From: Brevinematales bacterium
Lineage (GTDB): Bacteria > Spirochaetota > Brevinematia > Brevinematales > JAOACQ01
NCBI GenBank assembly: GCA_020052515.1
Contig: JAGVOW010000060.1
Location: 1-41,161, forward strand
DNA: 41,161 nt
Reading direction: 5' to 3'
Shown: positions 10,288 through 29,130 of the stretch, piece by piece
Layout: each line of letters begins with the position of its first letter
Position numbering within the stretch: the first letter of the stretch is position 1
The notes under the pieces: generated by a model
What the model was told of the DNA's origin: nothing
What the model saw: the letters and a program-made list of their open reading frames with translations, nothing else
Database searches by the model: none
Made by a program: the position numbers and the translations under genes

Positions 10288-11377
10288 CTACTTCATCTTT
10301 AAATAGCCGATGATAAACGAATCAATATTGCCGTCCATGACCGACTGCACATTCTTGTTTTCAATATTGGTCCGGTGGTCTTTTACCATCGTATAAGGCT
10401 GAAAGACATAACTGCGAATTTGACTGCCCCAGCCAATGGCTTTCTTCTCGGGCGTATTCCTCGCCTTTTCTTCTTCCTGTTTCTGCTTCTCGTATTCATA
10501 AAGCTTGGACTTCAGCATTTTCATCGCCATATCGCGGTTTTGTATTTGCGACCGCTCAATCTGGCAGGCCACCACAATTCCCGTCGGAAGATGCGTGATG
10601 CGCACCGCTGACTCCGTCTTGTTCACGTACTGCCCGCCGGCCCCGCCAGCCCGGTAAGTATCCGTTTTTAAATCCTTTGGATCAATCACAATCGTAATAT
10701 CATCGTCGATCTCCGGCGAAACACAGACAGAAGCGAAGGACGTCTGGCGCTTGTCATTTGCGTTAAAAGGGGAAAGCCTCACCAATCGATGAATGCCGTT
10801 TTCCGGCCGGAGATAGCCATAACAATAACTCCCCTTTATAAAAAGCGTCACGTCTTTAATGCCGGCCACTTCTCCCGCGTCAAAATTTACTATTTCTACG
10901 GGAAATCCATGCCGTTCCGCCCAGCGCTGGTACATCCGAAGGAGCATTTCCGCCCAGTCCTGCGATTCCGTACCGCCGGCGCCTGGATGAATATTCAAAA
11001 AAGCGTTGTTCTTATCAAATTCGCCGGTAAACATCATCACAATTTCCAGCTTGTTCAACTCTTCCAGAAGCCCTTCATATTCTTTTTCCAGGACTTTCAA
11101 GGTTTCCTCATCGTCCTCGCTTTCCGCCAGCTCCGCAAACTCTTTCAAGTCAGAAACCTTTTTCCCGAAAGCCTCCCAGCCGCCGATTTCCTTCTCTAGG
11201 CCGGAAATTTTCGAGGAAATCTCCGCTGTCAGCTTGTGGTCATTCCATAGCTTTTCATCCTGAAGTTTTTCCTTTAATTTTGAAAGCTCCTCAATCTTTT
11301 TATCGTTCTCAAAGATACCCCCAGTCTTTATTAAATTCAGAGAGCATTGACCCCACTTTCTCTAGAAAAGCCGCCAT
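10288..11377 (-). CDS. prfB: Peptide chain release factor 2, with programmed +1 frameshift
   Basis: Ends translation at UGA and UAA. The main frame contains the peptidyl-hydrolysis motif GGQ (in RAGGAGGQYVNK) and the stop-codon recognition motif SPF (in RLSPFNAND). The gene starts at ATG 11377 with GAGG upstream. Frame zero gives 22 codons ending W-G-Y-L and then UGA (11309-11311). A +1 shift on CUU at 11312-11314 joins it to the second frame, which begins E-N-D-K-K and runs to 10288, for 362 residues in all, the expected length. An annotation starting in the second frame alone (TTG 11148) would lose about 76 N-terminal residues. Confidence 0.95.
11309..11322 (-). promoter_or_regulatory. prfB autoregulatory +1 frameshift site
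   Basis: Minus strand GGGGGTATCTTTGA: an internal Shine-Dalgarno-like G-run three bases before the slippery CUU followed by in-frame UGA. This is the same arrangement as in the known prfB frameshift of other bacteria. Low RF2 stalls ribosomes at UGA and promotes the shift, so RF2 adjusts its own synthesis. The next base is G. Confidence 0.93.
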
Positions 11378-11409
11378 ATTTTTTTCCTCACTTTTTACTT
11401 TATCCTATT

Positions 11410-11438
11410 ATTATACATACTATTAAGCCTAATGTCAA
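11410..11438 (-). promoter_or_regulatory. Consensus sigma70 promoter for prfB
   Basis: Minus strand TTGACA, 17-bp spacer, TATAAT, all at exact consensus. It predicts a leader of about 25 bases before ATG 11377. It is back to back with the sigma54 promoter of nifA. Confidence 0.85.
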
Positions 11439-11467
11439 CTGGATGAAAAGCGCATCATTGAGCGAAT

Positions 11468-11484
11468 TTGGCACAATATTTGCT
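11468..11484 (+). promoter_or_regulatory. Sigma54 (-24/-12) promoter of nifA
   Basis: TTGGCACAATATTTGCT matches the RpoN consensus TGGCAC-N5-TTGCW at every defined position. The -12 GC is at 11482-11483, so transcription should start near 11494-11496, only about ten bases before the GTG at 11506 and just at the GGAGG ribosome site. This implies nifA is itself activated by an enhancer-binding protein (itself or an NtrC type). Confidence 0.85.
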
Positions 11485-11505
11485 AAAAAATGTTTGGAGG
11501 TGTTT

Positions 11506-13125
11506 GTGGAATTACTCAAAGAAAAAAATAAAACCAACCGTGAATTGAATGAGCTTTCATTGTTATTTGAGATCAGCCGTGCTTTGAGTGAATCGCTGGA
11601 TTTGCGTTCGGTACTGAAGCCGGTCCTGAGGATGACGGCGGAACATATGGAAATGCTTCGGGGTACACTGACCATATTAAACCGCAAGACCGGGGAAATA
11701 TTTATCGAAGAAGCTTACGGCCTTCTCCCCGAAGAGCAAGCCAAAGGAAAATACCGGCTGGGCGAAGGCATCACCGGTAAGGTCGTAGAAACAGGCCAGC
11801 CGGCCATTATTCCTCAAATATCAGACGAGCCTTTGTTTCTAGACCGCACCGGTTCCAGAAAACGCCTCAACAAAAAGGACATTTCCTTTATCTGCGTTCC
11901 AATCAAAATCGGCAGCGAAGTCATTGGGGCACTTTCTGTTGACCGCTTATTCAGCGATAAGGTATCTTTTGAGGAGGATGTGCGGCTTCTTACAATTATT
12001 GCCTCCAATATTTCACAGGCGGTAAAACTCCGCCAGCTCGCGCAGGAAGAAGTAAAAAAGCTCGCGGAAGAAAATCTGCGCCTGCATGAGGAACTCAAAG
12101 ACAAGTTTAAACCGGCAAATATTATCGGAAATTCGAAAGCCATGCGCAATATTTATCCCCTCATAGAAAAAGTGGGAAACACGAACACCACTGTTTTGAT
12201 TCTAGGGGAAAGCGGTGTGGGTAAAGAAAAAGTTGCTCAGGCGATCCATTACGGCTCCTGCCGCGCCGACAAACCCTTTATTAAATTCAACTGCGCCGCT
12301 CTGCCCGAAAACTTGATTGAAAGCGAGCTTTTTGGACATGAAAAAGGTGCGTTTACAGGGGCCTCTTCCACCCGCAAAGGCCGGTTTGAACTGGCCGACG
12401 GAGGAACAATTTTTCTGGATGAAATCGGGGAAATACCGACTTCCATACAGACAAAGCTGCTGCGGGTTCTGCAGGAAAAGGAATTTGAGAAGATAGGCGG
12501 AAACGACTCTATCAAAGTAAATGTCCGCATTATCGCCGCGACTAACCGCAATCTGGAAATAGCTATAAAAGAGCGGATATTCCGGGAAGACCTTTATTAC
12601 CGTTTAAATGTTTTCCCTATTGTTGTTCCGCCTCTCCGGGAAAGAAAAACCGATATTTTACTTCTGGCCGATCACTTTATCGAAAAATACAACCGCGAGC
12701 ATGGAAAATCGATCAAGCGCATTTCCACTACGGCGATCGACCTCCTGATCTGCTATAATTGGCCGGGTAATGTGAGGGAACTGGAAAACTGTATGGAAAG
12801 GGCTGTCATATTGTCGGCTGATAGCGTTATCCACGGTTTTCATCTTCCGCCAAGCCTGCAGACAGGGAATTCCAGCGGCACGGAGAAAAGCGGGAGCCTC
12901 GAGCAGATGCTGTCTTACTATGAACAGGAAATGATTGCCGAAGCGCTCAAAAGCACCAGTGGAAATATTGTCCAAGCCGCCAGCCAGCTTGGTATTACAG
13001 AACGCATTATGGGCCTGCGAATTCACAAATACAACATCGATCCTCAGTGGTTTAAGAATTGGAATAAATCCTCGCAAAAAACCGAGCATGATGCTCGATT
13101 AGCGATCAGTTCAGAAATAACCTGA
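11506..13125 (+). CDS. nifA: Nif-specific sigma54-dependent activator NifA
   Basis: A 539-residue enhancer-binding protein that activates RpoN promoters. Domains in order: N-terminal GAF sensor (about 20-180), charged linker, AAA+ domain with Walker A GESGVGKE (near 234) and the sigma54-contact loop GAFTGA (281-286), then a C-terminal Fis-type helix-turn-helix (AASQLGITERIMGLRIHKYNID), whose wording is typical of NifA. I start at GTG 11506, five bases after GGAGG. The frame is open back to 11347, but that would lie upstream of the sigma54 promoter and overlap prfB. The cysteine motif linked to oxygen sensitivity in some NifA proteins is not seen between AAA+ and HTH, and no nifL is nearby. 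It converges on the nif operon's last gene. Confidence 0.9.
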   Translation: MELLKEKNKTNRELNELSLLFEISRALSESLDLRSVLKPVLRMTAEHMEMLRGTLTILNRKTGEIFIEEAYGLLPEEQAKGKYRLGEGITGKVVETGQPAIIPQISDEPLFLDRTGSRKRLNKKDISFICVPIKIGSEVIGALSVDRLFSDKVSFEEDVRLLTIIASNISQAVKLRQLAQEEVKKLAEENLRLHEELKDKFKPANIIGNSKAMRNIYPLIEKVGNTNTTVLILGESGVGKEKVAQAIHYGSCRADKPFIKFNCAALPENLIESELFGHEKGAFTGASSTRKGRFELADGGTIFLDEIGEIPTSIQTKLLRVLQEKEFEKIGGNDSIKVNVRIIAATNRNLEIAIKERIFREDLYYRLNVFPIVVPPLRERKTDILLLADHFIEKYNREHGKSIKRISTTAIDLLICYNWPGNVRELENCMERAVILSADSVIHGFHLPPSLQTGNSSGTEKSGSLEQMLSYYEQEMIAEALKSTSGNIVQAASQLGITERIMGLRIHKYNIDPQWFKNWNKSSQKTEHDARLAISSEIT

Positions 13126-13581
13126 TTAATTAACAGGCAACAAGTGCCAGCATATCATACTGGTTGCTTTCCAGCCAAGCTTCTTATAAAATTCCAGGGC
13201 TCCCAGATTGGCTCTGTCCGCAAGCAGTTCCATTCTGAGCGCGCCTTTTGAAAGGCCCCATAGAGACAATTCTTTCAGCAGCGCTTTTCCAATCCCTTTA
13301 TTGCGATATTCGGGAAAAACCACGAGGTCTTCCACTTTGAGGGAGAATCCTCCCTCCGCGGTAGAAACCGCAAGCTGCCCGGTCACCATCCCGACAACAT
13401 TGCCGCACAAATCCGCCGCCAGTACAATGTTATCTTCAACCCTTTCCAATAAAAGGCGGAGCCCATTTTCCTGTTTCTCAGAATGGGCAACAAAATCGGT
13501 TTCTATAGAAAAAAGATGCCCTAATAACTCAGTCATTTTTTTAACGTCCGCAGGCGTAGCTTTACGAATAGAAAATTTCAT
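13126..13581 (-). CDS. GNAT-family N-acetyltransferase in the nif operon
   Basis: A 151-residue acetyl-CoA-dependent transferase. Motif A is VEDLVVFPEYRNKGIGKALL (acetyl-CoA pyrophosphate loop R-N-K-G-I-G-K), followed by LLADRANLGALEFYKKLGWK, which is the GNAT motif B region. The start ATG 13581 overlaps the preceding stop as ATGA, so it is translationally coupled to the homocitrate-synthase-like gene and is the last gene of the nif-mod operon. The substrate is unknown; the context suggests a target linked to nitrogen fixation or a metabolite of it. Its stop codon abuts the nifA stop. Confidence 0.8.
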   Translation of the reverse strand: MKFSIRKATPADVKKMTELLGHLFSIETDFVAHSEKQENGLRLLLERVEDNIVLAADLCGNVVGMVTGQLAVSTAEGGFSLKVEDLVVFPEYRNKGIGKALLKELSLWGLSKGALRMELLADRANLGALEFYKKLGWKATSMICWHLLPVN

Positions 13582-15113
13582 ATCACCTCTTTCTGCAGGG
13601 CCCAATTCACGGCAGATAGTATGCTTTCCACCATTGCCTGGAAACCAGCTCCCAGATAAGATTCTCCTGAAAAACGCGCGCCTTTATATTCCAGAATGAT
13701 CTTTGCCGACGACCCGGCTTTGCTTTCTACAGCAGAATGAGTCCATTGCGACTCGAGAATCCGGATTTTATACGGAAGAATTTTTTGAAGGGCAAAAATG
13801 ACGGCGGATTCCACTGAATTTCCCTTTCCTTTCAAGAGAACATTCTTTTTCCCTGGCTTTCGCGCAAGCAAAATTTCCACTTCGTGATCGTTCTTCATTT
13901 TGAATTTATAAGAACAATTTCTCAGGGCATAATATGGTTTTAACTGAAAGTTTTTGAATGAAGACAGCCATTCTAAAAGATCCGTACCGCTCACGGCTTT
14001 TTTGCCTCCGGCAAATTCTTTGAAGCCAGAAAGACTTGCGGCAGCGCCTTCATCGCTCAATACAATCCCTGTAAAATCAAAGACAGCTTTTGAGAGCCCT
14101 TCTTTGCCGGAATGCTGGCTCAGTGCCAATTGATTATCATCCCGGCCGATTTTCACTGGATCAATAATGGAATAACTCATGGCATTCTGGATCATTCCAT
14201 ATTGGTGCATCCCCGAACTGTGCCGGAAAGCATTCCAGCCTGTAATTGGCTTGTTTGGCGCGGGCGCGATACCAGTCAAAGCCGATAGCAGATTGGCAGC
14301 GCGTGTAATTTCACCCATCCGGATCTGGCCAAAAAAAACATCGCTGTAAATGTCCCGCCGGCAATTCAGCGCCAGTACAACTTCTTCCAGAGCAGCGTTT
14401 CCCGAACGCTCCCCGATACCGCCAACTGTAACCTCAATCTGCTCCGCTCCAGACTTGACCCCGGAAAGTGTATTGGCAACAGCCAGGCCCAGATCATTAT
14501 GACAATGCACACTGATGCGCACCTTTTTTCCTGAAGGAATGACAACTTCTTTTTTTACCCTGCTTACAATCGCGCCGAATTCATCAGGATCAGCACAACC
14601 TACCGTATCAGGAATATTAATAATACTAGCTCCCGCATGGATAACCACAGAGTAAAATTCCAGCAGAAAATCCATTTCAGTCCTGGCGGCGTCTTCGGCG
14701 CCGAACTCGACCTCATCTACATATCCACGGGCAAATTCCGTAAAATGAGAAGCCATTTTTAAAACCTCAGATTTGGATTTATGGAGCTTGTATTCCCGAA
14801 GGATGGGCGACACAGGAAGAGAAAGATGAATTATTTTTTTACGGGCTTTTTGAATGCCGCGAACAGCAGAAATAATATCTTCTTTTCTGGCCCTTGCCAG
14901 CACAGAAACAAAAGATTTTGAAAGTGCTTCCGCTATCATTTCGACAGCCCTTGTTTCTTCAGGCGAAGCGTACGGAAAACCCGCCTCAATTATATCTACC
15001 CCAAGATTTTCTAACTGAAGCGCGAACATCAGTTTCTCCTTTTCCGATAACGAAAATCCCGGAGCCTGGCATCCGTCCCGCAGAGTAGTATCCAAAATTA
15101 TCAAATTTCTCAT
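13578..15113 (-). CDS. Homocitrate/2-isopropylmalate synthase family protein, probable NifV role
   Basis: A 511-residue enzyme that condenses acetyl-CoA with a 2-oxo acid. The TIM barrel shows DTTLRDG at the N-terminus, [12 protein letters not shown], the metal-binding [28 protein letters not shown], and HSSGMHQYG. Residues about 390-511 look like the LeuA allosteric dimer domain, which most NifV proteins (about 380 residues) lack. By sequence it could be LeuA. Its place at the end of a nif-mod operon favours making homocitrate for FeMo-co. Cys follows DG where many relatives have Glu or Asn. It starts three bases after modC ends. Confidence is high for the family, moderate for the substrate. 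Confidence 0.75.
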
Positions 15114-15116
15114 ACG

Positions 15117-15989
15117 TTATCCATGATTTAATTTTGTTATGATTGGATTGAAAGCTTTTGCCGATATCCGGATGCGGTCCCCTACTTTCAACCCATCCGC
15201 GTCTGAACGGGTAACAACGACTTCTCCCGCGGTGTTGTCAATCGATAACTGAAGGACGATGAGAACGTCAGATTCTATTATTTTTAGTACTTCAGCATTA
15301 AAAGACAATTTGCGCGAAGAATCGCCTGTATTAAACAGTTTATCCGGGGAAATATTCATTTCCACATTACCGTTGTTTATTCCTATGACACGGGAAGAAA
15401 GCAAATAACTGTCCGCCAGATCATGACTGACCATAATCACCGTATGATTTTCCAACCGGCAAAGGTCTCTGATTTTAGTTCGCAGACAAGCCCTGAGATT
15501 TTGATCAAGTGCAGACAACGGCTCATCCAGAAGAAGTAGTTCACGTTCCGATGCAAACGCCCTGGCAATAGCGGCCCGCTGTTTTTGACCGCCTGAAAGC
15601 CTGTCGGGACGTCTGTTTTCAAGTCCGCCTAAATGAAAATTTTGGATCCAATAATCAATTTTATTTTTGTTTTTGTTGCCGTAAGCGATATTCTGATAAA
15701 TGGTCATGTTTGGGAACAACGCGTAATCCTGAAATACAAAACCGATATTCCTTTTCATTGTTGGCATTTTTTGTTTTTTGTTTGAATCATACCAGATTTC
15801 TCCGTTATTGAGAATACAACCTGAATCAGGCTCTTCCAATCCGGCGATCATTCTCAGGAGTGTTGTTTTTCCGCTTCCTGAAGGCCCCCTCAGTGAAACA
15901 AACTCCCCTTTCTCAATCGATAGCCTGATGTCCATAAAAAAAGAGCTGTCGGTTGAAGGATAATGTTTTTTCAAGCTGATATTCATCAT
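15117..15989 (-). CDS. modC: Molybdate ABC transporter ATP-binding protein
   Basis: A 290-residue cytoplasmic ATPase driving molybdate import. Walker A GPSGSGKTT, Q-loop FVFQDYALFP, signature LSGGQKQR, Walker B LLLLDEP and the switch histidine in VMVSHDL are all visible. A C-terminal TOBE-like region (about 225-290) is shorter than in E. coli ModC (352 residues), which carries two Mop repeats. The separate Mop-like gene upstream may supply that function. The start overlaps the modB stop as ATGA. Confidence 0.88.
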   Translation of the reverse strand: MMNISLKKHYPSTDSSFFMDIRLSIEKGEFVSLRGPSGSGKTTLLRMIAGLEEPDSGCILNNGEIWYDSNKKQKMPTMKRNIGFVFQDYALFPNMTIYQNIAYGNKNKNKIDYWIQNFHLGGLENRRPDRLSGGQKQRAAIARAFASERELLLLDEPLSALDQNLRACLRTKIRDLCRLENHTVIMVSHDLADSYLLSSRVIGINNGNVEMNISPDKLFNTGDSSRKLSFNAEVLKIIESDVLIVLQLSIDNTAGEVVVTRSDADGLKVGDRIRISAKAFNPIITKLNHG

Positions 15990-16663
15990 CTGGATTGCCC
16001 CGGGTTCAAATTTCTGTTCCAGGCATTGACCATAAAGACAAGCAGAATTGATATGCCTATCATAACAAAAGAATATACCGAGGCGCTCTGGTAATCAAGC
16101 ATCTCAACACTGTCAAAAATCGCTATTGAAGCAAGCCTGGTTTCGCCGGGAATATTTCCGCCGATCATCAGCACAACACCAAATTCTCCCAGCGTATGCG
16201 CGAATGTAATCGCCAGGGCATTAACAACCAACGGAACCATATTCGGCAATTGGACGGAAAACAGAGTTTTCATTTTACCTTTACCCAGCGATTCTGAAGC
16301 CTCGATGAGAGAAGCCGGTATTTGCGAAAGGCCGTTTTTCAGAGGCAAGAGCATAAAGGGCAAGGAATAAACGCAGGAGGCGATCACGAGGCCGGAAAAA
16401 TTGAATACAAGCCGTACATGGAAAACGGATTCAAGCCATAACCCGAAACCATTTCTGGGAGACAGAAATAAAAGCAGATAAAATCCGATCACCGTGGGGG
16501 GAAGGACCAGCGGCAATGTCAGGATTGTTTCCAACCAGATTTTCCAGGCGGATTTTGATTTACTCAGAAAATAAGCGATAGGAAGCGATACGAAAAATAA
16601 AACACATGTTGTGGCTATAGATAATTTAAAGGAAAGCAGAAAGGGCTGCCATTCGATATTCAT
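15986..16663 (-). CDS. modB: Molybdate ABC transporter permease
   Basis: A 225-residue inner-membrane protein with about five hydrophobic helices, including TTCVLFFVSLPIAYFL and ILTLPLVLPPTVIGFYLLLFL. The cytoplasmic EAA loop that contacts ModC is EASESLGKGKMKTLFSVQLPN. TLGEFGVVLMIGGNIPGET is the typical ModB/CysT signature. The length matches ModB (about 225-230). Start and stop overlap both neighbours by ATGA, so synthesis is tightly coupled. Confidence 0.9.
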   Translation of the reverse strand: MNIEWQPFLLSFKLSIATTCVLFFVSLPIAYFLSKSKSAWKIWLETILTLPLVLPPTVIGFYLLLFLSPRNGFGLWLESVFHVRLVFNFSGLVIASCVYSLPFMLLPLKNGLSQIPASLIEASESLGKGKMKTLFSVQLPNMVPLVVNALAITFAHTLGEFGVVLMIGGNIPGETRLASIAIFDSVEMLDYQSASVYSFVMIGISILLVFMVNAWNRNLNPGQSR

Positions 16664-17064
16664 AAATGTTCCTCGAACTCTGACAGAGATATTGCCAACG
16701 AAGGAATAATCGCAACAATGGGCTGCTCTATTTCATTGAGCCATTCTTTTACCGAGCTCACCGTCGATATGGATTTGATCATCCCAAGGCCGCTGTCTAT
16801 AACGATTTCGGAAAACAAATCTCCGCTTTCCCGGAGAATGAATTTCCCCCTGATTTTATTTTCAACACTAATTCCGCCCTCATAATCCTGACAAAGAATT
16901 ACTTCTGTTTCCTTAAATACCGCGAAGGCCTTTTTCCCCGCATAAACCCATGGAGGAATCTCGAGCGTTACAATCCGGAGGAATTCCTCTTTATGCCGAA
17001 ACAAAAGGGAATAAAAATGCCCGAATTTTTTAATATCAACAATTTTTCCTTCAATTCGGTTCAT
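16660..17064 (-). CDS. Mop/TOBE-like small molybdate-binding protein
   Basis: A 134-residue protein that appears to consist of two tandem TOBE/Mop-type strand domains: residues about 1-65 (RIEGKIVDIKKFGHFYSLLF) and about 70-134 (NKIRGKFILRESG, then EIVIDSGLGMIKSISTVSSV and VAIIPSLAISL). The second half follows the Mop pattern of a glycine-containing strand, a central S-V turn and a final I-P/K-x-x-x-V-x-L strand. Such proteins bind or store molybdate. The start at 17064 overlaps the HEPN-like gene's stop; the ORF extends upstream but without a ribosome site. The assignment is by pattern and by location between mod genes. Confidence 0.6.
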   Translation of the reverse strand: MNRIEGKIVDIKKFGHFYSLLFRHKEEFLRIVTLEIPPWVYAGKKAFAVFKETEVILCQDYEGGISVENKIRGKFILRESGDLFSEIVIDSGLGMIKSISTVSSVKEWLNEIEQPIVAIIPSLAISLSEFEEHL

Positions 17065-17462
17065 TTGAACAATTGTTTCTCCGTAAATATTTTTACTTCC
17101 AACGCGGTTGATAAAAACAACCGGACATCTTTCTCCTTTAAGGTTTTTCTGCCGCATTGGTCAATAGAACAGATATCCTGAAAACTATCCATTATCAGAA
17201 GTTTCTCCTTAAGCTTTCTTGAAAGAGGCATAACTTTAGTAACCTCATTTGCCAGATCTTCGAGTGTATGATTTTCCGGTAGTCTTTTATGGTAAAGAAG
17301 AAACCCCATAAATAATTTTTCAATGGCCATCGCGGAAATATTATAAAGAATAACCGGAGTAAAAACTTTTGGCCTATTCGAGGCGTTGAGCGCCGTTTTA
17401 AGGTAATCCAAGCCTTCCCGGTAAAACTGCTCCCAGATTTCATTATTCTTTACGCTATTCAT
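17061..17462 (-). CDS. HEPN-like helical protein in the mod gene cluster
   Basis: A 133-residue all-helical protein. The core ILYNISAMAIEKLFMGFLLYHKRLPENHTLEDLANEV resembles HEPN domains, in which A-x-x-A-x-E-K is followed by a long helix and a T/H-x-L-x-x-L element. The RNase motif R-x4-6-H of toxic HEPN proteins is not apparent, so a binding or scaffold role is more likely. It is placed between modA and the Mop-like gene and overlaps the latter by ATGA. I know of no established role for such a protein in molybdate uptake. Confidence 0.55.
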   Translation of the reverse strand: MNSVKNNEIWEQFYREGLDYLKTALNASNRPKVFTPVILYNISAMAIEKLFMGFLLYHKRLPENHTLEDLANEVTKVMPLSRKLKEKLLIMDSFQDICSIDQCGRKTLKEKDVRLFLSTALEVKIFTEKQLFK

Positions 17463-17485
17463 AACACCCCCTTTAGTACTCTCAA

Positions 17486-18250
17486 TTAAGGCTGTTGGTA
17501 CCCATATCTACGAAATATTTTTTGGGCCTGCTCCGAAAAAATAAATTTATAAAATTTCCGGACTTCGGGATTCCTGATCGAATTATTCAGGATCAGAATT
17601 CCCTGCTCTATTGGTTTATACAAATTGGTGTCTATTTTCACCCAATTTATCTTGGATCGGATTATTTCTTTCCGATTATTGTCATAAATCATGGATTCGG
17701 CAATGAAGCCAACGTCAGCCGATACGGCCACATATTCTGCGGCCTGCTGAATGTTTTCCGCGTAAATCAATTTGTGCTTTATTGAATCAAACAATCCGGC
17801 ATTCGACAAGGCAATAGCGGCGGCTTTTCCGTAAGGAGCGACTCGCGGATTTGCCAGAGCGATCTTTTTTATATTTGCCTGTGTCAGGAAAGATAACCCG
17901 CCGGACAAAGGCGAATGAACCGCTGTAAGTAAAAGCAGTTTTCCGTAAGCGTAAACCTTTGGAGGATAAAGCGCCAACCCTGATTCAAAAACTTTTTTCG
18001 GGTATTCCATGTCGGCCGACATAAAAATATCAAAAGGAGCTCCGTTCAATATCTGGGCAGCCAGCTTTCCACTGGAAGCCGTAACTATCAAAATTTCATT
18101 GCCAGGATTTTCGATGTTATAAGCTACTTTCAAATCCTTAACAACGGAGGCTAAATTGGCTGCCGCCGCAATAGTTATTGTGCTTTTATTTTCTGCATAT
18201 GCCTGGATAAGACTCATTGCGAATAACAGTATTGGCAATAACCATTTCAT
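17486..18250 (-). CDS. modA: Molybdate-binding periplasmic protein
   Basis: A 254-residue Sec-exported substrate-binding protein that captures molybdate for ModBC. Signal peptide residues 1-19 end AYA. The mature protein begins with ITIAAAANLASVVKDL and has TASSGKLAAQI, which supply the oxyanion-binding serines, then GAPFDIFMSAD, ALANPRVAPYGKAA and DVGFIAESMIYD, all ModA landmarks. The start is supported by GGAGG. It follows the ferredoxin gene by 16 bp within the nif operon. Confidence 0.92.
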   Translation of the reverse strand: MKWLLPILLFAMSLIQAYAENKSTITIAAAANLASVVKDLKVAYNIENPGNEILIVTASSGKLAAQILNGAPFDIFMSADMEYPKKVFESGLALYPPKVYAYGKLLLLTAVHSPLSGGLSFLTQANIKKIALANPRVAPYGKAAAIALSNAGLFDSIKHKLIYAENIQQAAEYVAVSADVGFIAESMIYDNNRKEIIRSKINWVKIDTNLYKPIEQGILILNNSIRNPEVRKFYKFIFSEQAQKIFRRYGYQQP

Positions 18251-18266
18251 ATTTCACCTCCAGGCT

Positions 18267-18575
18267 TTATGACATAAGATAATTCCCGGCAGGCTTTCCT
18301 TCCTCCAGTGCGTCGAGGATTTCATCGATGGCCGACTCACTTTCAACCTTGCCGTACCACCAGTTCTCCGGGTAAATAATCATGGCCGGCCCCCGGTCGC
18401 ATACTTTCAGACAGCCCGTGCTGGAAACGGATATTCCTGCCATTCCGCGGTCGGCTATTTCATTTTCCATATACTGCAGAAGGCGCATGCCTCCTTTCTT
18501 CGCACAGACACCCTGCGCCTCGCCGGACATCCGGAAGCTGCCACAGACAAAAATGTGACGTTTCGGTTTCTGCAT
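18267..18575 (-). CDS. Thioredoxin-fold [2Fe-2S] ferredoxin
   Basis: A 102-residue electron carrier with ligand cysteines 11, 24, 55 and 59 (FVCGSFRMSGEAQGVC and STGCLKVCDRGP). This pattern marks the thioredoxin-like 2Fe-2S ferredoxins that often occur in nif clusters. GPAMIIYPENWWYGKV is the usual C-terminal landmark. A role in electron supply to nitrogenase or cofactor assembly is inferred from position directly after nifB. AGGAG supports the start. Confidence 0.88.
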   Translation of the reverse strand: MQKPKRHIFVCGSFRMSGEAQGVCAKKGGMRLLQYMENEIADRGMAGISVSSTGCLKVCDRGPAMIIYPENWWYGKVESESAIDEILDALEEGKPAGNYLMS

Positions 18576-18615
18576 ATTTTACTCCTATGTATAAGGGGCT
18601 TAAGCCCATTTTTTA

Positions 18616-19869
18616 TCAACATCCGCCGCCCGTTCCGGAACAGCTGCCGGCATTACAGCGGCCGGGGGTTTTTAGAAAAATTTTAGGTATCTCTTTCCCT
18701 GAAAGCACGGCTTTAGAGGCTTCCGCTATCATTCCCTCCATGGTAATCACTTTTATTCCATGGTTTTCCAAGATTGTTTTAGGAATATCACCAATCCCGC
18801 TGACCAATACCGCCAAGCAGTCCAGAAGACTCTCGGATAAAGCAATCCACCGGTCAGTACCCCCGCCGGAAGGCGGTGCTTGACGGCGGTTCACCAGTTC
18901 TATTGCGCCATTGTTCATTTTGAATATCCAGAAAGCCTTTGCCTCCCCCATGTGTTGATTAACAAAAAGCCCTTCCATGCTGGCGACGGCGACATAAGGC
19001 CTTTCTTTCGATATTTTTGGGAGAGAAGCTTCTTTCAACAATTTAAAAGCCTCGGCGCTCATTGCCTCTCCAATTAACCCGGCGGCGTCGGCCCGGCAGC
19101 GGCTGCAATGGTTCATCTGGGGAAGAAGGCCAGCGGCCTGTTTTTTTATTTCAGCAAGCATATCATGGTTTGGGGGCAGGATTCCCTCAAACTCCGTTCC
19201 TTCGACATGGTAGAGCGGAATAAAGTTGATAATATCCGCTCCTAATTCTTTCGCTTTTCTGGCGACTTCCACGGCATGGGCCTCATTAATACCTGGAATA
19301 ATTACGGTATTTATTTTGACCGTTATGCCTTCCGCCTTGAGGCTTTTGATCGCTTCTATCTGTTTCTCAAGAAGAATTTTCGCGGCTTCCAGGTCTCTAT
19401 AAACTTTTCTGTCATAACGTACCCAGGCGGCTATTTTCGACCCAATTTCCGGATCAATGGCATTCAGCGTTATCGTCACATGGCTGATATTGACTTTAGC
19501 GAGTTCTTCCGTGTATTTTGAAACCTCAAGGCCATTGCTGGCTAAACAAAGAAGCATATCCGGATATTTCCCGCGAACCAGCCGGAGCGTCGAAATCGTT
19601 TCATCAGCGTTGGCAAATGGGTCTCCGGGGCCGGCAATGCCGACAACGCTAATGTTACTAATTTTTGTCATAACCTTATCCAGATATTCAACAGCTTGGA
19701 GCGGATTCAACACAATGCTCGAAACGCCGGGTCTCGACTCATTGACGCAGTCAAATTTACGGTTGCAGTAATTACACTGGATGTTGCACTTCGGCGCTAC
19801 GGGGAGGTGGATCCTTCCAAACTGATGACGCGCTTTCTCGTTAAAACAGGGATGGTTCTCAATATTCAT
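18616..19869 (-). CDS. nifB: Nitrogenase cofactor biosynthesis protein NifB with C-terminal NifX-like domain
   Basis: Radical-SAM enzyme that makes NifB-co, the 8Fe-9S-C core of FeMo-co. From ATG 19869 (417 residues) it shows HPCFN, the radical-SAM motif Cys28-x3-Cys32-x2-Cys35 (CNIQCNYC), GIAGPGDPFAN, and the later cysteine pair NHCSRCRADAAGLIGE. Residues about 295-400 form a NifX/NafY-like domain (VAVASMEGLFVNQHMGEA and onward), followed by a Cys/Gly tail ending GSCSGTGGGC. The GTG at 19881 overlaps the nifEN stop, but ATG 19869 has GAGGA at better spacing. No separate nifX is present, so this fused domain may carry the cofactor. Confidence 0.93.
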   Translation of the reverse strand: MNIENHPCFNEKARHQFGRIHLPVAPKCNIQCNYCNRKFDCVNESRPGVSSIVLNPLQAVEYLDKVMTKISNISVVGIAGPGDPFANADETISTLRLVRGKYPDMLLCLASNGLEVSKYTEELAKVNISHVTITLNAIDPEIGSKIAAWVRYDRKVYRDLEAAKILLEKQIEAIKSLKAEGITVKINTVIIPGINEAHAVEVARKAKELGADIINFIPLYHVEGTEFEGILPPNHDMLAEIKKQAAGLLPQMNHCSRCRADAAGLIGEAMSAEAFKLLKEASLPKISKERPYVAVASMEGLFVNQHMGEAKAFWIFKMNNGAIELVNRRQAPPSGGGTDRWIALSESLLDCLAVLVSGIGDIPKTILENHGIKVITMEGMIAEASKAVLSGKEIPKIFLKTPGRCNAGSCSGTGGGC

Positions 19870-19877
19870 AATTTTCC

Positions 19878-22607
19878 TCACAAATAACTATAGCCGACCG
19901 GCGAAGACTCCTGTTTACCTGCCAGAATGGTATTCACAATCCGGTCATAAAGCTCCTGGGTTCCCCTGTATCCTACATGATGAAGCCTTTGTGCTCCAAA
20001 GCGGTCGTGAATCGGAAAACCCGCGCGCACCAGAGGCACATTCAGCAACCGGGAAAGGGAATATCCCTTACTGCTTCCGATCAAAAAGTCTGATTCTATG
20101 TCTTTCATACTTTCCAGAATAGTCATATGATCCGCGTTCTCGATCACGCGAACCGCTTCCACCGTATTATTTAAGACCGCTTTCAAAGCAGATTCATATC
20201 CATTTTCTGAAGCGCCTGTCGCGCAGATAGCTGGAATGATCCCGACCTCATCCAGAAAAGAAGCCATTCCGATAACAAAATCGGCGTCGCCGAACACTAC
20301 CGCTTTTTTTTCAAAAACGACTTTGTGCCCGTCAATGTAAGAATCAATGAGCCTTCCCCTTTCCATCGCGTATTTTTCCGGTATTTTTCTTCTGCTGATC
20401 TTCTCCAGTTCCAGAAAGAAGGCGTCGCATTCGTCCATGCCGATCGGAATACCCAGATTCACTCTTTTTACCCCGAATTTTTCTTCCAGATAAGAGGCGG
20501 CAGTTTTTCTCCCTGGAAGCGTCCGCCCCAGCTCAAGAGAACCTGACGCACGTCCCATTCGCCTGATGAAAGCAAGGGGCGTTCCGCCTTTTGGGACCTT
20601 CTGGTATTCCTGCCAGTTCGGACCATCCAGAGTGTCTGAATAATCCGGCAGTAGGGTGTAATCCAGTCCAAAATCCGAAAGAATCTCTTTCAGGTGCCGG
20701 ATATCGGAAGCGGAAAGAAGGCCGGAAAATAAATTCACAAAAGATTCTTTTTCTCCTCCTTCAGCCATTGCTTCCACGGCTGAGCGCAGCGCGTTCTGGA
20801 ACCCGTCAGCATGTGTCCCGCTGTAGCTTGGCGTTGATGTCAGAATAAATTTAATATCTTTATATTCAGGATGCTTCTTTTTAAAATTCTCCAAAAACAT
20901 CGCGGTATCATCGCCTATTGTTTCCGATAGACAGGTGGTCGCGATTCCCACCGCTTCCGGCTGATACTGGCATATCACATTTTCCAGCGCCGCCTCCATA
21001 TTTTCACCACCGCCGAAGATAGCGGACTCTTCGCTAAAATTAGTCGAAGCCACATCCAGCGGTTCGCGATAATGGCTGATTATGTAGCGGCGGATATAAG
21101 TCGAACAACCCTGAGACCCGTGTACCAGAGGCACGCAGTTCTCAATTCCTTTATAAACAAAAACAGCGCCGAGCGGTGAACAAAGCTTGCACGCGTTCCT
21201 CGCCGAGACATGGGTTCTAGCCGCCTCACCCCAGTCCCCTCTCCAAATTTGGAGAGGGGCGGACGAAGGCCGGGGTGAGGCGGCCGCGTACTTCCACACT
21301 GGGCTCATGACACTCGAATAAACCTCACGGCAAAAATTCACCATCCCCGAAAATCCTGCAAGAGGGGTTTTGCGTTCGTGATTGTGATCGCAAAAGCCAA
21401 TCCCCATTTTGTAAGCGATCGGACGCTCTTTCACACCGCCGATTAATAGGTCTACTCCTTTTTCCCGGATAAATTTCGATAGTTCCAGCGGATTGGTGTC
21501 GTCCACAATCACCGTACCCGGATCGCAGATTTCTTTTAAATAATTGTAGTCGTCTTGATTACCGGTCTGTGAGCCGACCACGGATGTTGTCATACCAATA
21601 TGCCTCAAGGCCTTAACCAGCGAAAACGCTTTGAAAGCCCCGCCGACATAAATAGCCGCTTTTTTCCCGGCCAGCGCTTTTCTGTAACGCTCCATTTCCG
21701 GCAGGATTTTTGTGACTTCATCCTTTACCAGCTCTTCCGTTTTTTTCTGAATATCCGGGTAATTCAAAAACTTCGCCACATCATACAAAGCGCCTGCCAT
21801 ATCCTCAATGCCAAAATAAGAAACCCGGACATACGGAATGCCGTATTTTTCGAGCATCATCTTCGCCAGATGAGTCATAGAACCGGAACATTGAACCACA
21901 TTGAGCGCCGCATGGTGGGAAGCGCGGATTTCATCTACCCGTCCGTCCCCGGTAATACAGGAAAGAACTTTCACTCCCATTTTGCGGTAATAGCTCTTGA
22001 TGATCCAGGTTTCGCCGGCAACATTGAAGTCCCCCAATATATTAATGCTTTTTGGGATCGTCCCTTCGGAACCGCCAGTCCCGACAAGCTGAAATACCGC
22101 AACGCAGGCGGCTTTATAGCCGTCTTTCTTGGTTCCTCTAAATCCCTCTGACTGCACGGGAATTACAGGAATGCCGCTTTCAGCGGCAACTTTACGACAA
22201 ACCGCTTCCACATCGTCACCGATCAATCCCACAATGCATGTCGAATAAACAAACGCCGCCTTCGGCTGATGGTCCCGGATCAATTCAGTGAGAGAAGCGT
22301 AAAGCTTGTTCTCGCCGCCATAGATCACGTCTTTTTCGCATAGGTCAGTGGAAAAACTCAAGCGGTGGAGCTCCGGCCCGCTGGATAAAGCCCCGCGAAT
22401 ATCCCAGGTATAGGCGGCACAACCGATCGGGCCATGAATCAAATGAAGCGCGTCAGCTATCGGGTAAAGCACCACGCGCGATCCGCAGAAAACGCAGGCG
22501 CGCTGACTAACCGATCCAGCGAGGCTCTTTTTCTCGCAAGACAATTCATGGCTATCTTTCCCGTTCTCAAAAACCTGGGGTTTTCGTTTTTCCAGAATAT
22601 TTACCAT
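19878..22607 (-). CDS. nifEN: Fused FeMo-co scaffold protein NifE-NifN
   Basis: A 909-residue fusion of the two scaffold subunits on which NifB-co matures to FeMo-co. NifE half (1-441): cluster cysteines 38, 63 and 124 in RACVFCGS, GPIGCAAYTWD and YSTCIVGLIGDD, ending MSPVWKY. NifN half (from about 470): RNACKLCSPLGA, LVHGSQGCSTYIRRY and TTCLSETIGDD. The joint (residues about 442-463) is encoded by a palindromic repeat (21220-21284) and reads A-A-A-S-P-R-P, then ends W-G-E-A-A. No in-frame start codon with a ribosome site lies after the repeat, so NifN seems to be made only as a fusion. Start ATG 22607 follows AAGGA; an upstream ATG at 22637 lies inside the preceding repeat. Confidence 0.92.
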   Translation of the reverse strand: MVNILEKRKPQVFENGKDSHELSCEKKSLAGSVSQRACVFCGSRVVLYPIADALHLIHGPIGCAAYTWDIRGALSSGPELHRLSFSTDLCEKDVIYGGENKLYASLTELIRDHQPKAAFVYSTCIVGLIGDDVEAVCRKVAAESGIPVIPVQSEGFRGTKKDGYKAACVAVFQLVGTGGSEGTIPKSINILGDFNVAGETWIIKSYYRKMGVKVLSCITGDGRVDEIRASHHAALNVVQCSGSMTHLAKMMLEKYGIPYVRVSYFGIEDMAGALYDVAKFLNYPDIQKKTEELVKDEVTKILPEMERYRKALAGKKAAIYVGGAFKAFSLVKALRHIGMTTSVVGSQTGNQDDYNYLKEICDPGTVIVDDTNPLELSKFIREKGVDLLIGGVKERPIAYKMGIGFCDHNHERKTPLAGFSGMVNFCREVYSSVMSPVWKYAAASPRPSSAPLQIWRGDWGEAARTHVSARNACKLCSPLGAVFVYKGIENCVPLVHGSQGCSTYIRRYIISHYREPLDVASTNFSEESAIFGGGENMEAALENVICQYQPEAVGIATTCLSETIGDDTAMFLENFKKKHPEYKDIKFILTSTPSYSGTHADGFQNALRSAVEAMAEGGEKESFVNLFSGLLSASDIRHLKEILSDFGLDYTLLPDYSDTLDGPNWQEYQKVPKGGTPLAFIRRMGRASGSLELGRTLPGRKTAASYLEEKFGVKRVNLGIPIGMDECDAFFLELEKISRRKIPEKYAMERGRLIDSYIDGHKVVFEKKAVVFGDADFVIGMASFLDEVGIIPAICATGASENGYESALKAVLNNTVEAVRVIENADHMTILESMKDIESDFLIGSSKGYSLSRLLNVPLVRAGFPIHDRFGAQRLHHVGYRGTQELYDRIVNTILAGKQESSPVGYSYL
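21220..21284. repeat. Palindromic repeat, family 2, copy B, inside nifEN
   Basis: A 65-bp copy: outer arms GCCGCCTCACCCC and GGGGTGAGGCGGC, inner arms CCCCTCTCCAAA and TTTGGAGAGGGG. It falls exactly between the conserved end of NifE and the conserved start of NifN and is read through as a linker. Other copies are intergenic. Confidence 0.88.
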
Positions 22608-22619
22608 AAATTTTTCCTT

Positions 22620-22686
22620 CGCCTCACACCGCCTCACTTAGTTCGACACCCCTCTCCAAATCTGGAGAGGGGACGGGGGTGAGGCG
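22620..22686. repeat. Palindromic repeat, family 2, copy C, between nifK and nifEN
   Basis: Outer arms CGCCTCAC and GTGAGGCG with an inner CCCCTCTCCA/TGGAGAGGGG hairpin. It fills nearly the whole gap from the nifK stop (22687) to the nifEN ribosome site. It may also affect message stability or partial termination within the operon. Confidence 0.8.
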
Positions 22687-24063
22687 CTACATTACCAGCT
22701 CAAATCTTTCTTCCGGTGCATCCCTGTCCTGGCGGTCCATCACAGCGGAAAGAACCCTTTCCAAAAGCCTCAGGGCCCCTTTATACCCAACCATGGGAAA
22801 GTATTGATGCCCGATCCGGTCATAAATAGGGAAGCCGGTCCGAATGAGAGGAATATCCTCGTCTCTGGCAATATACTTGGCATACGTATTTCCAAAGATC
22901 AAATCCGGCTTGTCGTTTTTGACCAATTGATGGAATAGAAACATATCGCTTCCAAGGCCGTATTTCACAGTCGTCTTTTCCCCGGAAGCTTCATGCACCC
23001 GGCGTTCAAATTTCGGGCCGGCAGGTGTTCCGGTAACCACAACTGTTACTTTCATATCCAGGTCAGTCAGAAACTCCGCGAGCGAACTGAGCTGATCGGG
23101 GTCTCCCACCAGGGCGGCCTTCTTACCGTAAAAATACTGGTGCATATCAGTTATAACGTCCAACAACTGACCTCGTTCAAACTTAATAGAATCAGGGACA
23201 TTCACTCCGGCTGTCTTGCGGAGATTGTCGACAAATATATCTGTCGCGCGAAGTCCAATCGGTAAATCCAGTATTTCACAGGGGACTTTGCACTTAGTAT
23301 CCAGCGATTTTGCCGCCGGTAGTGAAGCCGTACGTCCCAGCGCCAGAGTAAAAAAACTGTCCCCCGCGCTCTTAATTTGATCCACTGTCGCTCCTCCATT
23401 CGGGAACATCTTAAATTTTCCGGTCATTGGCCCGTTCAACACGCCGGAGGTATCCGGAAACATCACGGACTTTACGCCCATTTCGGACATGATTCTTTTT
23501 AATTCAGCCATATCGGAGGGCTCAACAAATCCGGGAATCAGATTGATCTGCTTCTGCCGGCTACCGGTATTCTCCGAAAAGTAAGTTACCATGCTCTGCG
23601 TCATATTAGCGAAGCCGGTCACATGAGAGCCTTTGAAGCTAGGTGTATTGGTATGGATCACCCGTTTGCCCTTCGGAATTTTTCCCTCTTCCTGCGCTTT
23701 GCGGATGATTTGGTTCAGGTCATCACCGATCACTTCGGACAAGCATGTCGTGTGAACCGCGACTACATCGGGATCATAAACTGTGAAGATGTTGTTAATG
23801 CCTTCCAGCAGATTGGCCTGTCCGCCGAATACCGAAGCGCCTTCCGTGAAGGAACTGGTGGTTGCCATCACGGGCTCTTTATAGTGCCTCGTGAGTGCGC
23901 TACGGTGATATGAGCAACATCCCTGAGAACCATGGCTGTGCGGAAGGCATTTGTGTATTCCAAGAGCCGCGTACATCGCTCCTACTGGCTGGCATGTTTT
24001 AGCGGGATTGATTGTCAGCGCTTCCCGCTCCTCCAATTTTTTTGGTGTATGTCTTAATAACAT
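22687..24063 (-). CDS. nifK: Nitrogenase molybdenum-iron protein beta chain
   Basis: Beta subunit of the MoFe protein; with NifD it holds the P-cluster. Visible P-cluster ligands are Cys24 (KTCQPVGAMYA), Cys49 (SHGSQGCCSYHR) and Cys107 (TTCLSEVIGDD). At 458 residues it lacks the ~50-residue N-terminal extension of the Azotobacter/Klebsiella type, as usual in anaerobe-type nif clusters. AGAGAGG precedes the ATG, 14 bp after the nifD stop. Paralogous to the NifN half of the next gene. Confidence 0.96.
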   Translation of the reverse strand: MLLRHTPKKLEEREALTINPAKTCQPVGAMYAALGIHKCLPHSHGSQGCCSYHRSALTRHYKEPVMATTSSFTEGASVFGGQANLLEGINNIFTVYDPDVVAVHTTCLSEVIGDDLNQIIRKAQEEGKIPKGKRVIHTNTPSFKGSHVTGFANMTQSMVTYFSENTGSRQKQINLIPGFVEPSDMAELKRIMSEMGVKSVMFPDTSGVLNGPMTGKFKMFPNGGATVDQIKSAGDSFFTLALGRTASLPAAKSLDTKCKVPCEILDLPIGLRATDIFVDNLRKTAGVNVPDSIKFERGQLLDVITDMHQYFYGKKAALVGDPDQLSSLAEFLTDLDMKVTVVVTGTPAGPKFERRVHEASGEKTTVKYGLGSDMFLFHQLVKNDKPDLIFGNTYAKYIARDEDIPLIRTGFPIYDRIGHQYFPMVGYKGALRLLERVLSAVMDRQDRDAPEERFELVM

Positions 24064-24077
24064 AATATTTACCTCTC

Positions 24078-25730
24078 TTAGTTGTTCCAGGCATAGTTGC
24101 CGGCTAATTCCGGGCTATTGTCCCAGGGGGCTTTTACAAGACTGAAGACTTTTGTATTGACCAGCCGGTCGATCTCGCGGTAAAAATTGACCGCGCCTTT
24201 AAACCCAGCATAAGGCCCGCTGTAATCGTAACTGTGAAGCTGTTTGAGCGGAACTCCGCTTTTCTGGATCACATATTTTTCTTTAATGCCCGCGCAGAAT
24301 ACAGCCGGCTTATATTTTTCAATCAGCACTTCTGCCTCATAGTGGTTGAGGTCGTCAATAACAAGGGTATTGTCCTTCATTTCCGACATCATCCCTTCAT
24401 AATCATTAAACCGCATTCCCGATTTTTCGAGCTCTTTCATCTCCTTTTCCGTCTTTCTCTCCCGGTAGCGCTGGGGATCAGCTTCCACGGAAAGCTCCTC
24501 GATGTTTCGGGTATCAGCGTCCACCACAATGTTTGGGATAACCTTCCGGCCTTCATAATCATCGCGGTGCGCAAATTCATAACCGGCAGAAACGGTTTGC
24601 ATCCCGATTTCCGTAAACAACTCTTGGTAATGATGGGCGCGGGAACCTCCGACAAATAGCATCGCCAGTTTTCCTTCGCAACGTTCTTTTACTTCAAGAC
24701 GAATCTTTTCCACTTCAACCAATTCAGAGGCTATGACTTTTTCCGTTTGAGCAATTAGTTCTTTATCGCCAAAATAGGCTGCCATTTTACGCAGAGACTT
24801 TGCGGTTGCTTCCGCACCTACAAAATTTACTTTAAACCATGGAATGCCGTACTTCTTTTCCATCATTTCCGCAAGATAATTGATCGAACGGTGGCACATG
24901 ACCACATTTAGGTCGACTGTATGCGCACTAGCAAATTCGTCATATTCAGAATTGCCGCTAAATGTCGAATGCAGGGTAAATCCGCACTTGTCGATAATCC
25001 GCTCAATTTCAAAAGCGTCGCCGCCGATGTTGTACTCGCCCAGAATATTGAGCTTAAATTTTCCTTCTTTTTCCTCTTCGAGCTGACCCACGACATCGGT
25101 AAATACTTTGTTATTAGCCACATGGTGGCCTGCCGACTGGCTCACCCCTTTGTATCCCTCGCAGGAAAAACCAAAAATGTTCACGTCGGGATACTTTTCT
25201 TCCATTTCTCTCGCGACCGAGTGAACATCGTCGCCGATCAGTCCGACCGGACAGGTCGAAAAAATGCCGATGGCTTTGGGGTGAAAAAGCGCGACCGCTT
25301 CATCAATGGCCTTTTTGAGCTTCTTTTCACCGCCGAAGATAATCTCATCCTCCTGTAAATCGGTAGACATCGCATAAGGCATGTAATTCGGGTGCTTGTC
25401 CGATTTGGTCCTGGTCTGGTTCCTTCTGGTCAGCCAGCTATAGAAGCCGCAGCCGATCGGCCCATGCGTAATCTGCAATATGTCCCGCGTCGGCCCAAGA
25501 ACCACGCCTTTGCATCCCGCATAAGCGCATCCACGCATAGACAGGATGCCCGGAATAGTTCTCGTATTGGCCATAATCTCCTGAACCTGCTCGCCTTCAT
25601 TTACCTTATTTACAATAATTTGTTTCGCTCTTTTTCTGGCAACCTTGGCCGGATATTTCGCAAGAATTTCTTCTTTTACTTCCGCCGCATCGGGTAATTT
25701 TGCAATGCTTTTTTCTATCGTATTATCCAT
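24078..25730 (-). CDS. nifD: Nitrogenase molybdenum-iron protein alpha chain
   Basis: Catalytic alpha subunit carrying FeMo-co. P-cluster cysteines are 68 (MRGCAYAGC), 94 (GPIGCGFYSW) and 160 (FSTCPVGLIGDD). FeMo-co ligands are Cys279 (VVMCHRS) and His499 (QLHSYDYSGPYAGF), and the substrate-site histidine lies in SAGHHVANN. At 550 residues it is longer than the 490-residue proteobacterial form because of an inserted charged segment at about 410-455 (ADPQRYRERKTEKEMKELEK), seen in clostridial and methanogen-type enzymes. Residues fit Mo-nitrogenase rather than VnfD or AnfD, and no anfG/vnfG gene is present. GGAG precedes the ATG. Confidence 0.96.
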   Translation of the reverse strand: MDNTIEKSIAKLPDAAEVKEEILAKYPAKVARKRAKQIIVNKVNEGEQVQEIMANTRTIPGILSMRGCAYAGCKGVVLGPTRDILQITHGPIGCGFYSWLTRRNQTRTKSDKHPNYMPYAMSTDLQEDEIIFGGEKKLKKAIDEAVALFHPKAIGIFSTCPVGLIGDDVHSVAREMEEKYPDVNIFGFSCEGYKGVSQSAGHHVANNKVFTDVVGQLEEEKEGKFKLNILGEYNIGGDAFEIERIIDKCGFTLHSTFSGNSEYDEFASAHTVDLNVVMCHRSINYLAEMMEKKYGIPWFKVNFVGAEATAKSLRKMAAYFGDKELIAQTEKVIASELVEVEKIRLEVKERCEGKLAMLFVGGSRAHHYQELFTEIGMQTVSAGYEFAHRDDYEGRKVIPNIVVDADTRNIEELSVEADPQRYRERKTEKEMKELEKSGMRFNDYEGMMSEMKDNTLVIDDLNHYEAEVLIEKYKPAVFCAGIKEKYVIQKSGVPLKQLHSYDYSGPYAGFKGAVNFYREIDRLVNTKVFSLVKAPWDNSPELAGNYAWNN

Positions 25731-25743
25731 AATTTACTCCTTT

Positions 25744-25777
25744 GCCCCCTCACACCTTTAAGGGGGGTGGAGGGGGC
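25744..25777. repeat. Imperfect GC-rich palindrome between nifI2 and nifD
   Basis: GCCCCCT at one end and AGGGGGC at the other, with an inner CACACCTTTAAGGGGGGTGG. It fills almost the whole gap between the nifI2 stop and the nifD ribosome site. It could attenuate or protect the message, giving different levels of NifH/NifI and NifDK, or be a relic of the GC-rich repeat families seen elsewhere. Confidence 0.6.
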
Positions 25778-25784
25778 GTTTAAA

Positions 25785-26165
25785 TTATATTTCATCCAGG
25801 GTTCCATCTCCTTCTTCACCTGTCCTGACACGAACAGATTCCAACACAGGCAGGACAAAGATTTTACCATCGCCCGCCTTCCCGGTCTGATTCGTGTTAA
25901 TGATCGTATCTATTGTTTTCTTGACCAGTTTGTCCGGCAAGATAATGCTGATGATCCTCTTGGGAATCAGCCTCTGTGAATTACCGAGCTGGGAGATCGC
26001 TTCTTCGTAACCCTGTTCGACTCCTTTCAGGACGGAAAAATCTACCAATCCCTTTCCTCTTCCCAGGCAATCCTTCGCGTGCAGAGAAGATATTCCAGCG
26101 TCGGACAGAGCTTTCTTTGTCGCGTTCATCTGATTCATCCGGATGATCGCCATCACTTCTTTCAT
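25785..26165 (-). CDS. nifI2: Nitrogen regulatory PII-like protein NifI2
   Basis: A 126-residue member of the PII family. With NifI1 it binds NifDK and blocks it when 2-oxoglutarate is low (fixed nitrogen is plentiful), as shown for methanogens. The sequence MKEVMAIIRMNQMNATKKALSDAGI and the C-terminal GKAGDGKIFVLPV are PII landmarks. The T-loop region (about 36-66) lacks the GlnB uridylylated tyrosine context. Its location between nifH and nifD identifies it as NifI2. It overlaps nifI1 by ATGA. Confidence 0.93.
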   Translation of the reverse strand: MKEVMAIIRMNQMNATKKALSDAGISSLHAKDCLGRGKGLVDFSVLKGVEQGYEEAISQLGNSQRLIPKRIISIILPDKLVKKTIDTIINTNQTGKAGDGKIFVLPVLESVRVRTGEEGDGTLDEI

Positions 26166-26515
26166 ATTTTGACCTCCTCCGGCCCGGCCGTACTTTCTTT
26201 CACTCCGGAGCTGACCGTATAAACTTCCAGCACGGGCGAAACAAAAATCTTACCGTCGCCGAAAGCCCCTTTTTCACCGGTCCTGGCCGATTGGATAATA
26301 GTCTTAACAACCAGGTCTTTATCGTTGTCCGGCACGACAATCAACAGTAGTTCCTTTGGGATTTCATCATAAGTAATGTCCCCGATTTTGATACCGCGCT
26401 GTTTACCACGCCCGGCTACACTCATTTTTGTAACAGCCGGAAACCCTTCCGCCATCAATGTCTCCATAACAAAGTCTACCTTTTCAGGCCTAACAATCGC
26501 TCTTATCATTAACAT
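26162..26515 (-). CDS. nifI1: Nitrogen regulatory PII-like protein NifI1
   Basis: A 117-residue PII-family partner of NifI2 in reversible nitrogenase switch-off. MIRAIVRPEKVDFVMETLMAEGFPAVTKMSVAGRGKQRGI is the NifI1-type N-terminus with the G-x-G-K-Q-x-G T-loop entry, and GEKGAFGDGKIFVSPV is the PII C-loop. GGAGG lies eight bases before ATG 26515. The 53-bp gap to nifH holds no gene or clear hairpin. Confidence 0.93.
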   Translation of the reverse strand: MLMIRAIVRPEKVDFVMETLMAEGFPAVTKMSVAGRGKQRGIKIGDITYDEIPKELLLIVVPDNDKDLVVKTIIQSARTGEKGAFGDGKIFVSPVLEVYTVSSGVKESTAGPEEVKI

Positions 26516-26568
26516 ATCTAAGCCTCCTAATCATTCCGGTCATTGAGCAAATTCGAAATCCGCTAAAA

Positions 26569-27405
<837 letters not shown>

Positions 27406-29101: not shown

Positions 29102-29130
29102 TTGACAAATGGATAAAGTTTATTTAAAAT
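29102..29130 (+). promoter_or_regulatory. Sigma70 promoter for the first GH26 gene
   Basis: TTGACA, 17-bp spacer, TAAAAT, with a leader of about 32 bases. A short AT-rich hairpin with a T-run just upstream (about 29083-29102) may end the receiver transcript. Confidence 0.7.

Follow-up and report, generated by a model that had tools for sequence, protein, structure and literature searches.

The small HEPN-fold gene located between modA and modB in the window (the whole stretch of DNA analysed here, 41,161 nucleotides) is tied to nitrogenase by itself, both by co-occurrence with nifK and by linkage to nif genes. Its adjacency to a Mop-like gene in the window is interpreted as two independent genes within one operon, namely a nif accessory gene and a component of a mod operon with a split regulator. 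We consider, with a probability of roughly 0.6, that the HEPN-fold protein serves nitrogenase, in its maturation or its control, as an accessory protein without nuclease activity, at a step suggested by genomic context. On a more specific proposal we are evenly divided: the protein would represent an undescribed nitrogenase accessory factor with an RNase-dead HEPN fold, whose former catalytic groove would serve as a Glu/His/Cys binding site. It would act in the maturation of the FeMo cofactor or in the control of nitrogenase, among anaerobic diazotrophs from two phyla or more.

The window carries the nif cluster of a spirochaete with a 2.6-Mb genome, in which the genes are arranged on the minus strand in the order nifH-I1-I2-D-K-EN-B-fdx-modA-HEPN-Mop-modB-modC-nifV-GNAT (Table 1), with a nifA-like activator gene at 11347-13125 convergent with the nif/mod run. 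A first-pass annotation of this DNA had described two small genes overlapping each other and modB inside a set of molybdate transporter genes, and this layout was confirmed by the coordinates: the HEPN and Mop-like reading frames overlap by ATGA, and the Mop-like gene overlaps modB by 4 bases. The transporter genes were likewise verified, modA and modB by NCBIfam models and modC by ABC_tran and modC-like matches. Plausible ribosome-binding sites precede the HEPN gene and modB, and an Rfam search of the window returned no match. In the window, nifE and nifN constitute a single reading frame of 919 aa (19878-22637), which in most relatives is divided into two. Two GH26 beta-mannanase-like proteins, read from the sequence only, follow the nif region on the opposite strand (29109-32586). 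FlaA (PF04620) gave 4 matches in the window's genome and 0 in 14 control genomes, a distribution that points to a spirochaete. Within the window's family, order and class, nifK was found in none of the other sampled genomes, and the closest nif core belongs to two genomes of another family (L030 and L031; NifK 77% identical), which together suggest horizontal acquisition of the region at 13578-27393.

Table 1. Features of the nif/mod region of the window
Feature	Position	Strand	Evidence
GNAT acetyltransferase; recurrent neighbour of the HEPN gene	13126..13605	(-)	PF00583 5.2e-14
nifV-type homocitrate synthase; found repeatedly beside the HEPN gene in the window's phylum	13578..15113	(-)	sequence; tblastn neighbourhoods
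short ModC-type ATPase, 290 aa, without full C-terminal di-TOBE	15117..15989	(-)	ABC_tran 3.4e-36; TIGR02142
modB permease	15986..16663	(-)	TIGR02141 2e-63, above cut-off
degenerate tandem Mop/TOBE protein (ModG-like / ModC C-terminal-like), 134 aa	16660..17064	(-)	TIGR00638; weak PDB Mop/ModG matches; relatives between modA and modB
HEPN-fold protein, 133 aa	17061..17462	(-)	ORF; PF05168 in relatives; AF2 and Foldseek; nifK co-occurrence; motif alignment
modA molybdate-binding protein	17486..18250	(-)	TIGR01256 1.6e-51, above cut-off
thioredoxin-like 2Fe-2S ferredoxin/DUF1636-like (fdx); recurrent neighbour of the HEPN gene	18267..18575	(-)	
nif core upstream: nifH, nifI1, nifI2, nifD, nifK, fused nifE-N (919 aa), nifB	18616..27393	(-)	ORFs; NifK match; tblastn homology

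The description of the first small gene as HEPN-like was upheld by structural comparison and by its relatives. PF05168 matched the window protein at E 0.11, below cut-off, and 6 of the 15 family members with a best E of 1.2e-5; one member (L067) exceeded the cut-off, at 23 bits against 22. An AF2 model built from five sequences (the window protein and those of L019-L022) reached a pLDDT of 85.8 and a pTM of 0.82. Its top Foldseek matches in the PDB were all HEPN proteins (1wol, 1ufb, 1o3u and 2hsb; probability 1.00, TM 0.68-0.79), and model and matches together identify a HEPN bundle of four to five helices. Fold comparison was needed because a sequence search of the PDB with the protein returned only coiled-coil noise. 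A profile of the family compared with one classical HEPN sequence gave a weak match (probability 10%). None of the 15 family members matched an NCBIfam model, the search of viral contigs and plasmids with the protein gave no matches, and no description of such a gene in a nif or nitrogenase setting was found in the open-licence literature.

The absence of an obvious RNase motif, also pointed out at first reading, extends to the whole family. Across the 28 aligned members, RX4-6H was conserved in none at the catalytic position, the end of helix 3; pattern matches were scattered elsewhere in the chain, and the one located in the catalytic region (L029) is not common to other members. Two residues are invariant in all 28 sequences, E48 in helix 2 and C98 at the end of helix 3, while position 65, in the loop between helices 2 and 3, is His in 26 members and position 66 is Thr in 27. 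In the published HEPN layout, the catalytic Arg and His lie at the end of helix 3 with an acidic helix-2 residue beside them, and in AF0298-like proteins the loop between helices 2 and 3 supplies an alternative His (PMC3710099). By this layout, E48, H65 and C98 would be expected along the former groove; in the model, C98 borders a low-confidence loop (residues 99-103). The ancestor was probably a HEPN-T-type RNase domain that has since lost RX4-6H, its former groove retaining the invariant Glu, the near-invariant His and a family-specific invariant Cys. The present protein is small and would most likely function, without catalysis, in binding or as an adaptor; this Cys might make it responsive to redox state or to metals.

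The association with nitrogenase was evaluated in two phyla. In the window's phylum, with carriers called at E below 1e-6 and nifK at E 1e-50 or better, the HEPN family was identified in 12 of 393 genomes, and 11 of the 12 carriers were nifK-positive compared with 23 of 393 overall (Fisher p 2e-14, and 3e-13 when the query genome is left out; nominal values, since the sampled genomes are related). Among the Desulfobacterota, sampled around Desulforhopalus, 14 of 395 genomes carried the gene, 13 of them with nifK, compared with 103 of 395 overall (nominal p 1.6e-7, or 5.6e-7 without the seed genome), the two phyla being represented in their sampled form. The sole nifK-less carrier in the window's phylum (G285) has a truncated copy with an in-frame stop; an intact copy is present in G701, where nifK was not detected. 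The HEPN gene is absent from about half of the nif-positive genomes in the window's phylum and from about 87% of those in the Desulfobacterota sample, and it is therefore not essential to nitrogenase in general. Distances between HEPN proteins were correlated with those between NifK proteins (r 0.67, Mantel p 0.0002; 0.95 for NifK and NifD in comparison). The window protein is only 30% identical to the HEPN proteins of L030 and L031 despite the 77% identity of NifK, which indicates that the gene is either fast-evolving or exchanged.

Linkage was also observed, with 21 of the 26 sampled carriers having the gene inside a nif cluster (8 of the 12 from the window's phylum, 13 of the 14 from the Desulfobacterota). 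In Desulforhopalus singaporensis the gene likewise lies within the nif cluster. There it is accompanied by nifV, GNAT, a 2Fe-2S ferredoxin or nifB, and mod genes are usually not nearby. In the window's phylum the order is typically fdx-HEPN-nifV-GNAT; alternatively, HEPN and nifV form a pair on the opposite strand. The typical order in the Desulfobacterota is nifK-radicalSAM-fdx-GNAT-HEPN-nifE. GNAT occurs in 15 of 22 clusters with HEPN versus 13 of 49 without it (p 0.0015). In nif-positive genomes with unlinked copies, the gene was found beside a Nitro_FeMo-Co (NifX-like) gene at L024 and beside a Nif11 gene at L023; Desulfoluna also combines an unlinked copy with a nif-positive genome. These usual neighbours, nifV, fdx, GNAT and nifB, would be consistent with a role in nitrogenase cofactor maturation or its control. 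No signature of an MNT nucleotidyltransferase was detected near the HEPN members, the lone pattern match (L069) lying in a reading frame that reads as an amidotransferase, and at a control locus with a classical HEPN-MNT pair (L081, in G211), weakly found by the same HEPN profile, the signature was seen.

Two other recurrent genes were noted in these neighbourhoods. Many Desulfobacterota nif clusters encode, between nifK and fdx, a radical-SAM protein that resembles NifB and shares about 30% identity with it (L019:6062-7234, with the same position in L021, L022, L069, L071-L074, L076 and L077). It is additional to a normal nifB in those cases where the contig is long enough to show one, and in L022 a Nif11 gene is also located near it. 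A protein of about 100 aa without a significant Pfam family recurs beside the nif-type HEPN gene in both phyla (L070:8581-8880, L072:9443-9739 and L024:9630-9944, the last lying by the unlinked HEPN copy beside the NifX-like gene).

The second small gene had been proposed to encode a tandem Mop/TOBE molybdate binder. Two Mop/TOBE domains are supported, in degenerate form. TIGR00638 matches half 2 of the window protein at E 0.0019, an alignment places a K-E-T motif in half 1, and PDB sequences of Mop and ModG match weakly (E 0.4-1). A relative at L084 (G028), 30% identical and encoded between modA and modB, exceeds the cut-offs of both TIGR00638 and PF03459 (TOBE). A single-sequence AF2 model was too poor for a fold search (pLDDT 43). 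In Tub, the type-2 oxyanion ligands are Ser4, Ser40 and Lys60 (PMC11980592). In the window protein, half 1 keeps the Lys and lacks the SAR segment, and half 2 keeps the Ser, has Pro for Lys and carries a Thr near the Ser40 position, leaving the set of oxyanion-binding side chains incomplete. With several canonical ligands absent, molybdate binding may have been lost.

The suggestion that this protein stands in for sensing domains missing from a short ModC was supported. TIGR02142 matches the window ModC only up to model position 242 of 353, though about 65 residues are kept beyond the ATPase, read by eye as a TOBE-like remnant, and the full length of the L084 relative can be aligned with ModC positions 238-350. 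A profile of the window and L084 proteins identified two further members, one in G063 and one in G180, each likewise located between modA and modB. The arrangement modA-diMop-modB-short modC is thus found in four genomes, with a ModC of 286-295 aa in each. A HEPN gene is inserted in the window only, being absent between modA and modB in all three other genomes (G028, G063 and G180), and nifK was not detected in G063 and G180. The Mop-like gene therefore belongs to a type of mod operon and not to nif. Judged from sequence and synteny, the protein is probably a split ModC/ModG regulator, that is, a ModG-like C-terminal di-TOBE region detached from ModC, which would most likely gate ModBC or buffer molybdate in trans. 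As to the mode of action, PMC4031551, citing Gerber 2008, describes inhibition of M. acetivorans ModBC through the regulatory domain of ModC, and by analogy we favour trans-inhibition of ModBC by the detached domain.

The first-pass annotation had gone further and combined the HEPN and Mop-like proteins into a joint molybdate storage or gating module dedicated to nitrogenase, and had proposed co-occurrence of the pair with modABC and nif as a check. This check separated the two genes: HEPN follows nif, the Mop-like gene follows mod, and the pair was not found together elsewhere. The joint module could draw on the ATGA overlap in the window, on the presence of mod genes in several HEPN-carrying nif clusters, and on L027, where a canonical 69-aa Mop (L027:9271-9480) lies between modC and the HEPN gene, directly upstream of the latter, in a modABC-Mop-HEPN-nifV operon. 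The L027 protein differs, however, in being a single-domain Mop, most nif-linked HEPN loci have neither a Mop gene nor mod genes nearby, and the three operons with a Mop-like gene and no HEPN include two from nifK-negative genomes. Since each gene recurs without the other, the module was rejected and we regard it as very unlikely, together with the dedication to nitrogenase that it implied.

Other explanations concern the HEPN protein itself. It might regulate nif expression as an RNase-dead domain binding RNA or a NifA-type activator, in the manner of the MtlR repressor branch; RNA-binding or repressor roles have been proposed for HEPN domains without the motif, MtlR among them (PMC3710099). 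At L033 there is an overlap between the HEPN reading frame and the end of a gene for a GAF-sigma54 activator, and many HEPN-carrying clusters contain nifA-like genes, but these are also common in clusters without HEPN, and most HEPN members are not adjacent to nifA; we rate this explanation as unlikely. It is highly improbable that the protein is a remodelled enzyme of the AF0298 HEPN-T type, cleaving a specific RNA at an alternative active site that combines E48 and H65, joined in part of the family by a basic residue. The conservation of E48 and H65 would fit such a site, as would the alternative His-based site proposed for AF0298 (PMC3710099), whose structure (2hsb) is among the top structural matches. 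Against this, the motif's basic residue is not conserved, roughly 11 of the 28 members having it (alignment read by eye), and the invariant residue near its position is a Cys. Least credible of all is a residual toxin or defence protein hitchhiking into the nif cluster: HEPN domains are commonly toxins (PMC3710099) and the same phylum has classical HEPN-MNT pairs, as at L081, but this family is conserved across two phyla, recurs in synteny with nif, lacks RX4-6H at the catalytic position throughout, has no MNT gene nearby and gave no convincing PADLOC match. A PADLOC match to Cas11a (E 0.024) was dismissed as chance.

The accessory-protein reading is the one retained for the HEPN gene. The catalogue of nif accessory proteins derives largely from models that are aerobic or facultative. 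In anaerobic diazotrophs, a nif gene that is conserved yet unnamed would offer a testable missing part of nitrogenase maturation or control, relevant to efforts that build minimal nif sets, and its product would show a toxin-type fold drawn into metalloenzyme metabolism. The putative detached ModC sensing domain would constitute a smaller, easily tested variant of molybdenum transport control.

In comparison with known systems, the Mop-like protein shares tandem Mop/TOBE domains with the ModG and Mop molbindins (TIGR00638, PF03459). It differs from them in the location of its gene between modA and modB, in a half 1 without the SARN start and in a half 2 with SVEN, the window protein having also lost the Lys of half 2. 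The ModC C-terminal di-TOBE (TIGR02142) is matched by the L084 relative over the region given above, and the accompanying ModC is short; unlike that domain, the Mop-like protein is encoded by a separate gene and its ligand residues are degenerate. The nif HEPN protein has the same fold as the HEPN-T / PF05168 domains (TM0613, 1o3u; AF0298, 2hsb; ST0689, 1wol; TT1696, 1ufb), with a common Glu in helix 2 and His in the helix 2-3 loop. In contrast to these domains, it lacks RX4-6H at the catalytic position, has an invariant Cys at the end of helix 3, has no nucleotidyltransferase partner and is linked to nif. The HEPN family, without a curated NCBIfam model, is unrelated to Nif11, NifX/Nitro_FeMo-Co and ArsC-like proteins, and resembles them in being a small, optional and recurring neighbour in nif clusters.
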